From positions 1 through 35,048 of the forward strand of contig JAJYDL010000005.1 in assembly GCA_021777495.1 (NCBI GenBank): a stretch of 35,048 nt of DNA, in the 5' to 3' direction. Shown here piece after piece: positions 29,865 to 35,048 of the stretch (within the stretch, counting starts at the first letter, position 1; the number at the start of each line of letters is the position of its first letter). The translations under genes were made by a program, and so were the position numbers. The DNA is from a bacterium. GTDB taxonomy: Bacteria > Patescibacteriota > Minisyncoccia > UBA6257 > 2-01-FULL-56-20. The notes below the pieces were generated by a model, which saw only the letters and a program-made list of their open reading frames with translations, ran no database searches and was not told where the DNA came from.

Positions 29865-30605
29865 TTAAAGGGTCCTGCCCCGATGCGACTCCCGCCATTC
29901 GGAAATCTTTTTATGGTTGCCGGAAAGAAGTACCGGAGGGACCTTCCACCGCGAACGCTTCTTCGGATCGGGCGCGAAGGATTCGGGGCGGGTATATGTG
30001 GGAAATGAGCCGTTCACCTCTTCGAGCGATTCTTCTTTCCCGATGAATCCGGGCACGTGACGGCTTACCGCTTCCATGAGAACAAGGGCGGGGATCTCTC
30101 CGCCGGAAAGCACATAGTTTCCTATCGAAATCTCCTCGTCGGCGATATGCTCCGCAACCCGTTCATCGACGCCCTCATAGCGGCCGCATACGAGTACGAG
30201 GTGGTCGTACTTCGCGAGGCGGCGCGCCGTGTGCGCATCGAATGCCTCACCGCGCGCCGAAAAAAGGATGGTGCGTACGCGCGGCTTCCGTGTGCGCTTT
30301 TTTGTAATGCCTCGCATTACCGCACGAAACGCGGCCCAGATCGGCTGGATCTTGAGGACCATCCCGGGCCCGCCGCCGAACGGCCGGTCATCCACCTTAT
30401 TGTGGCGATCTTCGGTGAAATCACGGAGGTCGTGGAGTGCGACGGTGATGATGCCGCTCTCTTTTGCGCGCGCGAAAAGCGATTCGCCGAGATACGATGA
30501 GAACATGCCCGGAAATATCGTGAGGATATGGAACCCGAGCGTCTTGGACGCCCTTTTTCTTCCACTACCGTCGGTACGTATTGTCCTTTTCGTAGTCTTC
30601 TTCAT
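29865..30605 (-). CDS. trmD: tRNA (guanine-N1-)-methyltransferase
   Basis: FHILTIFPGMFSSYLGESLFARAKESG; DDRPFGGGPGMVLK; LVCGRYEGVDERV; SIGNYVLSGGEIPALVLMEAVSRHVPG. Start placed at ATG 30605 (track 30695); overlaps the upstream gene by 41 nt. Confidence 0.95.
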   Translation of the reverse strand: MKKTTKRTIRTDGSGRKRASKTLGFHILTIFPGMFSSYLGESLFARAKESGIITVALHDLRDFTEDRHNKVDDRPFGGGPGMVLKIQPIWAAFRAVMRGITKKRTRKPRVRTILFSARGEAFDAHTARRLAKYDHLVLVCGRYEGVDERVAEHIADEEISIGNYVLSGGEIPALVLMEAVSRHVPGFIGKEESLEEVNGSFPTYTRPESFAPDPKKRSRWKVPPVLLSGNHKKISEWRESHRGRTL

Positions 30606-32754
30606 CGTCGTTATTCTGGGCGGAAGGTTTGGGATCCGTGGGAGCGGTTGTTGCTTGTGCGAGATCCTCCGCAAGGGATGCGCGGATCGCATCACGGAGG
30701 GATTCGATACTTACTTCCGCACGAGGCATATGCTTCGGCTTCGTGTTTGGAGTGCGCTCCTGGGGCTTCGCAAGTTCTACGAGAGAGATTGTCGGCGAAG
30801 GCTTTTCTACGGGGACCGTCGAAGGGACGGGCGTCTGCCCCGGGGCGACATCCGTTTCCGGCGTCTTCGCTGCGGAAAGGGTGGAAGCCGGCGGTGCTGC
30901 ATCGGCGGAAGCAGTCGCCCCCCGAACCGACGGCGTGGCCATGGGTGACTGGGCCGGGCCGGAAGGGCGTGCTGACGGAGAAAACGCGCGCGTCTTTGGA
31001 AGATGCGAGACTTCATGAGCCGCAGAGGGAGACGCGATGGGTTTCTTCGAATCCTTGCGCAGTTCCGACGCCGGACGCTGCGGGACGGAAGCTTCTTCGG
31101 CGAATTCTATCCCGAGGCGACTCAATGCATCGTTTGCGCGTTCCTTCTGCCGCGCCGCAGCCGGACGCGCCGGAGTTGCCGCCTTGATCGGTTTCAGCTC
31201 TCCCGATTCGATCTTCTTGATGCAGTCGCGGCAATACACGGGACGTCCCGGCGTGGGCTCGAAAGGAAGCGTGGTGAGATTGCCGCAGGAGGAGCAGATC
31301 GCCTGGTAGCGCACACCGGACGAAGTGACGATGGGAGCGCTCTTCTGTACGAGGCCGTCCGCCGTCGTGACGGGGCGTTCCGAGGGCGGCAAAGGAGAGG
31401 GGGTGGCATGGTCCTCGGGAGCGGGCGTACGCTCCATGATGCCGCTCCAACGGTTGATCTCCGCTTCGATCGTTTCGCGCGGCCGGGCATAGTACTTCTG
31501 GGACATTGCGATGATATCCTCTTTCACGATTTCTGATGATTTTACCTTGAACGTGGGCAGCGTCATCGCCGAAAACGGCCGCGCGGTCACGCCGTCGACC
31601 ATCAGTTTGATATAGATGTGGTAGTTTGGAAGGTTTACGATATCCTCGATCACGAATTCGGGAGAGAATTCGTTCTCGAGGAATTCCGCGTCCGTCGCGC
31701 CCACGCGGAAAACGATCATCGTGCCGACGTTCCCGAAGATGGCGTCACGCACCCGCGTCGAGCTGTCGGTGACAAGCTGGCCGATATACTGGTGCGCAAG
31801 CGTGAGATTGAGGCGGTACTTGCGGGCCTCGGAAAGTATCCCCGCGAACGAATCCGTGGCGAAGTTCTGGAACTCGTCCACATAAAGATAGAAGTCCACG
31901 CGTTCCTCCTCCGGAATGCGCACCCGTTCCATTGCCGCAAGCTGGATCTTCGTGATGAGCATTGCGCCGAGGAGCGCCGAATTATCCTCGCCGATGCGCC
32001 CCTTCGAGACGTTCACAAGGAATATCTTGCCTTCGTTCATGATATCGAAGACGTCGATCGTGCTCTTCGATTGGCCGACGATATTGCGCACGAGCGATGT
32101 CGAGAGGAACTGCCCCACCTTGTTCTGGATCGGCGCGATCGCCTCGTTACGGAAGCGGTCCTGCCAGCTTTCGAACTCGTTGATCCAGAACGCCTTCACC
32201 ACCGGGTCCTTCACGTTCGCGATGATCGTCTGGCGATATGTCTTATCGCTCAACAGGCGCGGGATGCCGAGAAGCGTCGAACCGGGGGTATCGAGGAGCG
32301 CGAGAATGCAGTTGTTGAGAATATATTCCATGCGCGCCGACCATACGCCGGCCCAGATTTTGGTGAAAATCGCCATCAGGCCCGATGCCACAAGATGTTT
32401 GTATTTCGGATCCGGAAGCTCAAGGATGTTGAATCCGATGTGGTAATCGGGATCGGCGGGATTGAAATAGACCACGTCTTTCATGCGCTCCTCGGGGATC
32501 TTGTCGAGGATCCCCTCCACAAGTTCGCCGTGCGGATCGACGACGCACACGCCTTCGCCGTTCGCGATATCCTGGACGATCATGTTGTTGAGCATGGAGC
32601 TTTTACCCGTGCCCGTTTTTCCTATTACATAGGTATGTTGCCGCCGGTCCGTCCTTTTGATGCCGAAAAGGCGGCTCGAATTCCTGAAATTCGTTCGCGC
32701 GAAATAGATGACGTTATTCTCGAGTTCGGCCGGTTGCGACGACAAGGGTGCCAT
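30565..32754 (-). CDS. VirD4/TraG-like ATPase with C-terminal zinc ribbon and long disordered tail
   Basis: Walker A VIGKTGTGKSSMLNNM; Walker B FYLYVDEFQNFATDSF; zinc ribbon CSSCGNLTTLPFEPTPGRPVYCRDC. Confidence 0.88.
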   Translation of the reverse strand: MAPLSSQPAELENNVIYFARTNFRNSSRLFGIKRTDRRQHTYVIGKTGTGKSSMLNNMIVQDIANGEGVCVVDPHGELVEGILDKIPEERMKDVVYFNPADPDYHIGFNILELPDPKYKHLVASGLMAIFTKIWAGVWSARMEYILNNCILALLDTPGSTLLGIPRLLSDKTYRQTIIANVKDPVVKAFWINEFESWQDRFRNEAIAPIQNKVGQFLSTSLVRNIVGQSKSTIDVFDIMNEGKIFLVNVSKGRIGEDNSALLGAMLITKIQLAAMERVRIPEEERVDFYLYVDEFQNFATDSFAGILSEARKYRLNLTLAHQYIGQLVTDSSTRVRDAIFGNVGTMIVFRVGATDAEFLENEFSPEFVIEDIVNLPNYHIYIKLMVDGVTARPFSAMTLPTFKVKSSEIVKEDIIAMSQKYYARPRETIEAEINRWSGIMERTPAPEDHATPSPLPPSERPVTTADGLVQKSAPIVTSSGVRYQAICSSCGNLTTLPFEPTPGRPVYCRDCIKKIESGELKPIKAATPARPAAARQKERANDALSRLGIEFAEEASVPQRPASELRKDSKKPIASPSAAHEVSHLPKTRAFSPSARPSGPAQSPMATPSVRGATASADAAPPASTLSAAKTPETDVAPGQTPVPSTVPVEKPSPTISLVELAKPQERTPNTKPKHMPRAEVSIESLRDAIRASLAEDLAQATTAPTDPKPSAQNNDDEEDYEKDNTYRR

Positions 32755-32801: not shown

Positions 32802-34592
32802 TCATGCCGTTTCCGCCTGATAGCACTGTTCGCAATACACGATCTCCGGGCGGCCGGGCGCGTATGCGGTCTCAAACGTGTTCTCGCATGCGGCGGCGCC
32901 ATGGAGATGCGCGGCGTGATTGCGATAATGTCCTCCTTCGGAATTTTCCCCAGAGCACATGCAGCGCCGCGCATGAAAGTCCAGTCCGGGGCCGTCGGAT
33001 ACACGGGCATAATGGCGGCAATTCGGACAGAGTCTCGGCAAGGGAAGGTTCATGCGGCGATAGAATTCAAGCTCGGCCGGCGTGACCCTGAATGCCGTCG
33101 TGCACTGTTCCCCGCACGTCCCGCGATGGGTGCATCCTATTATTTCATCGGTGATCGAGTCCCGCACGTCCTTTATGTTGTCCGGCAGGTCATCGGCGGA
33201 AACGCGTATGTCATACTGCTTCGTCTCGTCGAAATGCTTGCCGTTGAATCCCTGGGCGACGACCTCCGCCTGCGTAAGCGGGAAGTACATCTGCGCCATC
33301 GTCTCGCGATAATTGAACGGCGATATCTCCGACGGGAAAAACTCTCCGTACGGATACGCGTTCCCTTTGGCGTCGGTGTAGGGCATCGTCCGCATCTGCT
33401 CCACAATCCGCCCGCGGAGGGCCTCATATTCCTCTCTCGAATACTGCTTATTCAAAATGCAGTATTGCTTCTTCCGGACCCCCATGCACCCGAAAAGATC
33501 GTTCCCCTGCGAATACATGCAGTATTCGAGCTTACGCGTATCGGAAGACCAGCATTCGTAGCAGAAACGGATATCGCTCTGCCCTCCCCCGGTACCCATG
33601 CATTCATAGACGCGTTCCGCGCCGCCGCCCCACATCGTGAAATCATACGCATCCTTCGTGGAGGCAATGAAAAGGAAATGACAATATTTGCAATCCTGGG
33701 CATCGGTAACCTCGTAACTTTCCGAAACGTTTTTGGAATTGAAAATGAAATCCCCTTTCACCTCCGCGTTTTTAAGGCCATGCGCGTATCGCTTGGGCAA
33801 AGAGCGGCTCAATGCGCCCAACCGCTCGGTGAGCTCCTGCCGGACCTTATACGATCCCGGGTCGTATTTTTTGATTTCCTCAAAATACCCCTCTTTGGTG
33901 AATGGCTGGTTGAAGATGTGATATTGCTTGTTCCGCAGGTTCACGCATCCGAAGCAATGTTCGCACGCGATGCAATCCTTCGAAAATGCGACATCGACGC
34001 ATTCGTTGCAGTTATCGGAGAAGATGACGCGGTTGCATTTGTAGATATTATGGCTTTCGTAGCAAAGCTCCGAGAGGTCGCCCATCGTGATATCGAAGCA
34101 ACGGGAGCTCCGCTCCAGATAGGAACTGTATGCGCAATCCTCGTCATAGTCCGAATTGAAGACAAGATAGGAATTCTTGAGATATGACGCGATATTGCAA
34201 TAATCGCTGTTCACAAGGGTGCTCTCTATCGTTTCGCGCGAAGGATGCGGGATCCTCTCGAGAAGCTCTTTATATTGAGTAAAAAATGGGCGGGAAAAAT
34301 CATAATCGGCGCCATAATCCATCGGATCCCATGCATCCGACCACCAGCACGTCGGACAATAAATCAAACGACGTGATCCGGGCGAAAATGCGGAGAATAT
34401 GTTCTTTCCGCAATGCGCGCAGGTACTCCGATAAAGCGATCGCTCATTCATAAAAGAAAGCCGCCGTCGGATCCGGCAGCGAGGGCATCGCGTCGGCGGC
34501 GGAACGTCCATTCTCCCATAGAAGGCGAGGTCGTCGGGTTCGATCGTGAACGGCGATGTACAGCTCGTGCAGGTTGCGGTCGTGGAATCCAT
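32802..34592 (-). CDS. Large Cys-rich zinc-ribbon/repeat protein of unknown function
   Basis: Duplicated terminal modules CTSCTSPFTIEPDDLAFYGRMDVPPPTRCPRC and CGEQCTTAFRVTPAELEFYRRMNLPLPRLCPNC; central Cys-rich repeats. Start placed at ATG 34592 (track 34736 overlaps the divergent gene). Confidence 0.85.
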   Translation of the reverse strand: MDSTTATCTSCTSPFTIEPDDLAFYGRMDVPPPTRCPRCRIRRRLSFMNERSLYRSTCAHCGKNIFSAFSPGSRRLIYCPTCWWSDAWDPMDYGADYDFSRPFFTQYKELLERIPHPSRETIESTLVNSDYCNIASYLKNSYLVFNSDYDEDCAYSSYLERSSRCFDITMGDLSELCYESHNIYKCNRVIFSDNCNECVDVAFSKDCIACEHCFGCVNLRNKQYHIFNQPFTKEGYFEEIKKYDPGSYKVRQELTERLGALSRSLPKRYAHGLKNAEVKGDFIFNSKNVSESYEVTDAQDCKYCHFLFIASTKDAYDFTMWGGGAERVYECMGTGGGQSDIRFCYECWSSDTRKLEYCMYSQGNDLFGCMGVRKKQYCILNKQYSREEYEALRGRIVEQMRTMPYTDAKGNAYPYGEFFPSEISPFNYRETMAQMYFPLTQAEVVAQGFNGKHFDETKQYDIRVSADDLPDNIKDVRDSITDEIIGCTHRGTCGEQCTTAFRVTPAELEFYRRMNLPLPRLCPNCRHYARVSDGPGLDFHARRCMCSGENSEGGHYRNHAAHLHGAAACENTFETAYAPGRPEIVYCEQCYQAETA

Positions 34593-34680: not shown

Positions 34681-35048
34681 ATGGGAACGGTCCCATCTCT
34701 TGCCGCCATGGCATCCGCCTCCCTCATCCTTTTCATGGGAGGGGCCTATTGCCTGAAGATCGTCCATGGAAAGGCGCATCCGCCGATCGCCACCTGGATC
34801 ATCTTCGAGATAGGCGTCATCATGAGCCTCGTCACTTACCTTTCGGCGCCGTATCACGACCTTGTGCGCAACATCGCAAACACGACCGATTGCCTCGCGG
34901 TGACGTTCATCCTCGGGACGCTCATCACAAAGAACCGGAAAGAAGGCGTCCGTTTCCACCCGAACGAATGGATATGCCTTGCGGTCTCCGTCGCAACATT
35001 CGCCGTATGGCTCAAAGTGCATATGCCTCTCGTGGGCGTCATGGGATT
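34681..35048 (+). CDS. Multi-TM membrane protein, truncated at window end
   Basis: Open frame to window edge, so absent from the ORF track: MGTVPSLAAMASASLILFMGGAYCLKIVHGKAHPPIATWIIFEIGVIMSLVTYLSAPYHDLVRNIANTTDCLAVTFILG. Confidence 0.8.
   Translation, partial: MGTVPSLAAMASASLILFMGGAYCLKIVHGKAHPPIATWIIFEIGVIMSLVTYLSAPYHDLVRNIANTTDCLAVTFILGTLITKNRKEGVRFHPNEWICLAVSVATFAVWLKVHMPLVGVMG

Follow-up and report, generated by a model that had tools for sequence, protein, structure and literature searches.

In type IV secretion systems (T4SS), effector genes may form arrays beside the gene of the coupling protein, as is the case for the Bep proteins of Bartonella and the X-Tfe proteins of Xanthomonas. 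The host-interaction molecules of Patescibacteria, which are reduced and mostly host-dependent bacteria, are largely unknown. A 2025 survey counted 5,713 homologues of the coupling protein VirD4 in 2,918 patescibacterial genomes, only 148 of them near virB4, and left their role open (PMC12102498); zinc is not mentioned in the main text of that survey. Here we consider a 35,048-nucleotide stretch of a patescibacterial genome (contig JAJYDL010000005.1 of assembly GCA_021777495.1; hereafter the window) and, in particular, a cysteine-rich protein of 596 amino acids, P0001, encoded close to its right end. P0001 belongs to a protein family, here called F, whose genes form tandem arrays and travel with one class of VirD4/HerA-like ATPases, a link that is well supported and from which a role of the F proteins may be inferred. 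The expansion of F into tandem paralogues and its dedicated ATPase go beyond an earlier prediction made from the sequence of the window alone (hereafter the original prediction), and are more interesting than the features it described.

The ATPases in question fall into three classes in the 38 genomes of the window's taxonomic family, namely class A, which is universal, class B (~490 amino acids), and class C (~800 amino acids), which is nearly universal. Both A and B match PF10412, PF02534 and PF12696 (TrwB_AAD_bind, T4SS-DNA_transf and TraG-D_C) above cut-off and, by inspection, begin directly with the ATPase region, with no N-terminal transmembrane (TM) anchor. F relatives are found in 19 of the 38 genomes, and class B is present in all 19 of these and in none of the 19 F-negative genomes (Fisher p 6e-11); the count includes the class B gene of the window's own genome (G000), although that gene is cut by the end of contig C13. 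In a phylum sample of 287 genomes, long F matches were obtained in 21, the window's genome included, and the genomes with the 20 highest class B scores are 19 F-positive ones and G169; the two F-positive genomes outside these top 20 are G083, whose ATPase is divergent, and the window's own. When F neighbours were counted without prior choice of a family and with the ATPase classes pooled, the ATPase superfamily proved to be the commonest one (47 genes in 34 loci vs 8 for the next family). Across many families, class B usually directly adjoins the F array; outside the window's family it mostly carries a fused N-terminal domain resembling TM450, a membrane protein described below, and lies beside F arrays in most of the genomes examined. 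In the phylogenetic tree, A and C are separated from a single clade that comprises class B and fused B (support 99 in the Shimodaira-Hasegawa-like approximate likelihood ratio test, SH-aLRT), with class A as the sister clade of class B. The C-terminal tail of class B and fused B is near-invariant (EPLI, EPMI, EPII or APIL; L159-L194) in all cases examined except G083 and is not found in class A; possibly, it is a docking tail. A match of the fused ATPase to an adiponectin construct in the PDB (4dou) was disregarded, as the overlap comprises only 52 residues.

In the window itself, the gene that follows P0001 encodes a class A ATPase:

30565-32754, minus strand: ATPase A, VirD4/TraG/HerA-like, 729 amino acids, 47 bp downstream of P0001 and on the same strand (Pfam and NCBIfam matches, tree)
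31213-31311, minus strand: zf_Tbcl_2/TIGR04272 ribbon inside ATPase A, of the domain type of module 2 of F (above curated cut-offs)

This treble clef was considered as a docking site specific to F and was rejected as evidence, since ATPase A of the F-negative genomes G016, G022 and G169 carries it too.

The order of genes at the locus in the window's family is secD, secF, a sigma-70 region 4/HARE gene, TM450, TM172 and ATPase B, often followed by the F genes (e.g. L171, 6213-12868). TM450 and TM172 are separate genes with apparent N-terminal TM segments, as judged by inspection, and have no Pfam family; TM450 also adjoins ATPase A in F-negative genomes, and its predicted model, obtained from six sequences with a mean predicted local distance difference test score (pLDDT) of 47.9, is too poor for a reading of the fold. 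In G018 and G020, ATPase A comes after the F array, while G016 and G022, which belong to the window's genus and have neither B nor F, show TM450, TM172 and ATPase A contiguously, i.e. an empty site. Hence the window most likely shows the right end of the locus, with P0001 followed by ATPase A. The window (contig C11) ends at 35048, 456 bp upstream of P0001, and another contig of this genome, C13, breaks off within the class B ATPase (G000:C13:6167-6655, L158); most likely, the remainder of the array was lost between C13 and the end of C11. Because the assembly breaks within the array, the count of a single F gene has to be taken as a minimum for this genome.

In genomes of 0.8-1.0 Mb, there are up to ~30 F matches (31 in G034 and 30 in G028), which, at ~1.77 kb per gene, amounts to an estimated ~5-6% of the genome in the richest cases. 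A scan of GTDB genomes yielded at least 561 confirmed F stretches among at least 584. Among the matches listed, the family is restricted to Patescibacteria, the records with a lineage in their title all belonging there (e.g. Liptonbacteria, Nomurabacteria, Staskawiczbacteria, Giovannonibacteria, Uhrbacteria and Moranbacteria). Phage and plasmid records gave no tblastn match to F, and the only match on a viral contig (IMG/VR; IMGVR_UViG_3300025030_000857, L155) is partial, terminal on a putative viral contig of 6 kb, and probably host sequence; a phage or plasmid origin of F was rejected on these grounds. The F genes are arranged head to tail, with all 175 adjacent pairs on the same strand and a median gap of 9 bp. 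No two paralogues within one genome are more than 55% identical, so that recent tandem duplication was rejected, and the nearest relative of an F copy lies in its own genome for only 4 of 65 copies. Thus, the F arrays are old, non-redundant repertoires. Some F-like copies contain in-frame stops or are fragments (G051:C113:1520-3271, G303:C85:2-679, G231:C19:9094-10244), being either decaying genes or assembly errors.

The strand, coordinates and sequence motifs of the open reading frame of P0001 were verified. Cysteine accounts for 37 of its 596 residues (6.2%), compared to 0.41% in 20 further genes from the window (p 5e-31 in a binomial test). The following parts can be distinguished:

32802-34592, minus strand: coding sequence of the F member, 596 amino acids, final member of a tandem array that is interrupted where the contig ends (35048, as judged from the length of L001)
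34461-34580, minus strand: N-terminal treble-clef module 1, residues 5-44, Cys 8/11/36/39 (PF13451 below cut-off, Cys conservation)
34344-34442, minus strand: N-terminal treble-clef module 2, residues 51-83, Cys 58/61/79/82 (PF23477 below cut-off, Cys conservation)
33912-34232, minus strand: predicted solenoid 1, residues 121-227, ~8 coils of 12 residues, with every third position occupied by Cys or a small residue (structure prediction, HHalign, periodicity)
33453-33788, minus strand: predicted solenoid 2, residues 269-380, homologous to solenoid 1 and ending in a conserved FGC...KQYCILN unit (structure prediction, HHalign)
33153-33380, minus strand: conserved hinge, residues 405-480, with the motifs YGEFFP, SPFxYxET and FPLT and no known domain
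32805-33143, minus strand: C-terminal double treble-clef module, residues 484-596, Cys 487/497/522/525 and 544/569/587/590 (HHalign, Cys conservation)

HHalign comparison of profiles built from an alignment of 140 F relatives revealed two duplications, a terminal one (residues 1-90 vs 484-596, probability 99.5, E 2.7e-22) and a central one (array 1, residues 120-245, vs array 2, residues 270-402, probability 99.9, E 3.8e-36). Each end of F consists of two treble-clef modules. In P0001, two stretches match PF23477 (zf_Tbcl_2; E 1.7e-5, 24.9 bits vs a cut-off of 27) and two match PF13451 (zf_Tbcl; E 0.016, 15.6 vs 24 bits), and TIGR04272 scores 20.6 vs 36 bits, all below the curated thresholds. 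Among the 140 relatives, the quartet Cys 8/11/36/39 is complete in 139, Cys 544/569/587/590 in 138 and Cys 487/497/522/525 in 132, while Cys 58/61/79/82 is an all-or-none feature, complete in 63 sequences, without any of 61/79/82 in 75, and otherwise in 2. The terminal quartets, with two CxxC knuckles per site, thus appear to behave as zinc sites, and the zinc is predicted to be confined to the ends of the protein. Stand-alone proteins of ~90-150 amino acids in other Patescibacteria (L053-L059 and others) are similar to F over residues 3-85 alone, i.e. over the N-terminal double zinc module; these might be ancestors or partners of F.

The AlphaFold2 model of P0001, made without templates (pLDDT 89.5; predicted TM-score, pTM, 0.91), is confident for the middle of the protein, where DSSP assigns isolated bridges at intervals of about six residues. 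A 12-residue repeat is apparent in solenoid 1 from both Cys frequency and sequence entropy; the autocorrelation of Cys frequency in array 1 at lags 3, 9 and 12 exceeds that of all 2000 shuffles, and positions 132+3k are small or aliphatic in 93% of cells, as opposed to 33% and 22% for the two remaining phases. Array 2 shows a weak Cys periodicity (p 0.0085 at lag 9 and 0.04 at lag 3). The register comes from the sequence of solenoid 1, and the predicted fold reads as a narrow, 12-residue beta-solenoid with three-residue steps, similar in geometry to the antifreeze proteins of beetles. Across relatives, the solenoid cysteines are swapped one at a time for Ser, Val, Ala or Leu with no co-occurrence (phi <= 0.41), and the i/i+6 pairs show phi from -0.34 to 0.16, i.e. 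about 0. These substitutions make the series of cysteines look like core packing, and, given the missing co-occurrence, disulfides of the antifreeze type and a Cys-metal ladder were both rejected. The original prediction correctly anticipated both duplications, with all the motifs that it quoted found in place, as well as the solenoid-like stacking, now backed by the 12-residue register and the model, and the occurrence of relatives in other genomes of the candidate phyla radiation (CPR; 19 of 38 in the taxonomic family and 21 of 287 in the phylum sample). Its proposal of a metal-binding scaffold holds for the terminal modules, given that their quartets are conserved or all-or-none; it is not supported for the solenoid, where the cysteines are exchanged singly and unpaired, and neither is its reading of the Cys ladder as a metal site.

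The original prediction also named no characterized family, and none emerged. Searches of P0001 against Pfam and NCBIfam returned the treble clefs only, with the 400 residues between the modules left without a match; PHROGs contained nothing similar, PADLOC nothing at E<=0.1, and Foldseek, queried with the model, gave no significant match to PDB structures or to viral models. The top PDB match by sequence, a LIM domain (E 0.21), was dismissed as reflecting Cys composition. Hydropathy indicated no signal peptide or TM segment in the 140 F members, and a literature search confined to open-licence papers did not reveal a description of the family. The F family and its combination with the ATPase are in none of Pfam, NCBIfam, PADLOC and PHROGs, the terminal domains and the ATPase superfamily being already known.

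The two parts of the F proteins evolve differently. Among pairs in the paralogue range (40-50% identity), the solenoids are less conserved than the ends (0.41 vs 0.56, p 2e-22), whereas among close pairs (70-99% identity) they are more conserved (0.82 vs 0.79, p 0.027). P0001 and its orthologue in G018 share 95% and 93% identity in the two solenoids and 70-82% in the modules; NG86 estimates for these solenoids (nonsynonymous divergence, dN, 0.02-0.04; synonymous divergence, dS, 0.9-2.0, near saturation) indicate strong purifying selection. Differing between paralogues and fixed between orthologues, the solenoids look, as far as sequence comparison goes, like a specificity region. The low N-terminal identity of the P0001/G018 pair is partly due to recombination at the following site:

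34518-34550, minus strand: paralogue-recombination junction, codons 15-25 of P0001 (upstream matches F4 of the sister genome G018, 84%; downstream matches F5, 82%)

Relative to G018 (L065, 14948-15470 and 17440-19989), P0001 is a hybrid, its upstream region and first codons matching F4 and the remainder F5, with one gene fewer than in G018; a deletion in the window's genome and an insertion in G018 are both compatible with this junction. As it lies inside the shared zinc module, the arrays recombine there.

How could such a repertoire function? Tentatively, and with somewhat less than an even chance of being right, we regard the soluble proteins of the F family as the clients, whether translocated effectors or adaptors, of the dedicated class B VirD4/HerA-type ATPase. 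The ATPase would be held at the membrane by the accessory proteins TM450 and TM172 or, in other Patescibacteria, by the fused TM450-like domain; the shared zinc-capped ends of F would serve as the docking and recognition signal, and variability would reside in the solenoids, every one of which would bind a conserved ligand of its own. We infer, then, that F proteins physically contact the ATPase, bind ligands and, in the favoured version, are translocated by it, much as the products of an effector array are by the T4SS coupling protein encoded next to it. Two considerations favour translocated cargo. One is the analogy with other bacteria, whose effector arrays resemble this combination of a VirD4-type ATPase and an array of diverged paralogues; the other is that close relatives lack F, a pattern common among host-interaction genes. 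The fullest form of this scheme, a new patescibacterial delivery system in which the EPLI-tailed class B ATPase would translocate into host cells up to ~30 non-redundant zinc-capped double-solenoid proteins that occupy ~5-6% of the reduced genome, is in our opinion rather doubtful. Several observations weigh against the client scheme: no recognizable effector, toxin or enzyme domain was found in F with Pfam, NCBIfam, PADLOC or PHROGs; G169 has class B beside ATPase A (L184) yet no F gene; the ATPase of G083 is divergent, lacks the C-terminal tail and does not adjoin F; and numerous F arrays are distant from any ATPase. Moreover, Fisher tests overstate independence because the genomes are related, and the phylum cut is a post hoc ranking in which F-negative genomes follow closely in class B score (471 vs 480 bits). 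The excess of solenoid conservation in close pairs is small, and recombination in the N-terminal module also lowers the terminal identity in that comparison. Finally, other functions are conceivable for VirD4 homologues, which are ubiquitous among Patescibacteria (PMC12102498).

The nearest alternative, in our view unlikely, is that F proteins are interchangeable adaptors in the cytoplasm, the solenoid binding one protein or nucleic acid and the zinc ends passing this cargo to the class B ATPase for unfolding, export or remodelling. It draws on the same co-occurrence, adjacency and solenoid specificity as translocation and explains nearly all the same facts, being in line with one ATPase serving up to ~30 F proteins, with the failure to find an export signal and with the purifying selection on the P0001/G018 solenoids; however, retention inside the cell is an assumption, and tens of adaptors per ATPase would be unusual for a reduced genome. 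It is markedly less probable that F and class B, as accessory genes, are just inherited together at a common chromosomal hot spot, with no joint function: in the window's genus, both occupy one variable site between TM172 and ATPase A, and G169 retains B without F, but the association persists across distant families, different loci and the fused ATPase architecture. The patchy presence within the genus, the expansion of the arrays and the HerA-like ATPase, as a putative effector, could also fit a repertoire for the recognition of phages or mobile elements; this is improbable, considering that in PADLOC F has no match and the ATPases show no more than a weak similarity to HerA/mad8, that orthologous solenoids are conserved rather than hypervariable, that no nuclease or toxin recurs among the F neighbours, and that F is absent from phage and plasmid records. 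Least probable is a scaffold for metal binding or storage with Zn, Cu or Fe-S held by the Cys ladder, which would make sense of the 37 cysteines and the four terminal quartets but is contradicted by the single, uncorrelated replacements of solenoid cysteines and leaves the ~30 diverged copies and the ATPase unexplained.

With the client scheme as the preferred reading, a family that has no Pfam or NCBIfam model, makes up ~5-6% of some genomes, has been lost in closely related genomes and is linked to a single VirD4-type clade becomes a testable candidate for host interaction, and the link would give a role to a part of the many orphan coupling-protein homologues (PMC12102498).

Among known structures, the predicted solenoid of F is reminiscent of the Tenebrio antifreeze protein (TmAFP), a 12-residue beta-helix with the repeat TCTxSxNCxxAx (PMC8038014), in its coil length, its small residues (C, S, A) at every third position and its high Cys content. 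The corresponding register (small residues at i, i+3, i+6 and i+9) is seen in the sequence of solenoid 1 only, and the inward orientation of these residues is a prediction. Unlike TmAFP, with its cross-core disulfides Cys2-Cys8, F has no i/i+6 pairing and no TxT ladder in its consensus, and it combines two solenoids with zinc caps; neither sequence nor Foldseek comparison related the two. The hexapeptide left-handed beta-helices (LpxD, LpxA, gamma-carbonic anhydrase) are weakly matched by the F solenoid in Foldseek (best E 0.16), but with a TM-score of ~0.1 and a periodicity of 3/12 residues, as opposed to 6/18, the fold is not shared on this evidence. The N-terminal modules of F match zf_Tbcl (PF13451) and zf_Tbcl_2 (PF23477)/TIGR04272 (CxxC-x17-CxxC) in this order, albeit below both curated cut-offs, while ATPase A carries the latter domain type above the cut-off. 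Like the Bep and X-Tfe arrays, the F arrays consist of divergent paralogues that have conserved modules in common and lie next to a VirD4-like gene, and the F genes both adjoin and co-occur with a VirD4-type ATPase; unlike them, F carries a conserved module at either terminus and lacks a catalytic domain, and its translocation is putative. As for the VirD4-type coupling proteins of Patescibacteria (PMC12102498), the class A and B ATPases match the same domain models; they differ in that A and B have no N-terminal TM segment, TM450 and TM172 being separate proteins, and in that class B forms a separate clade tied to the F arrays.
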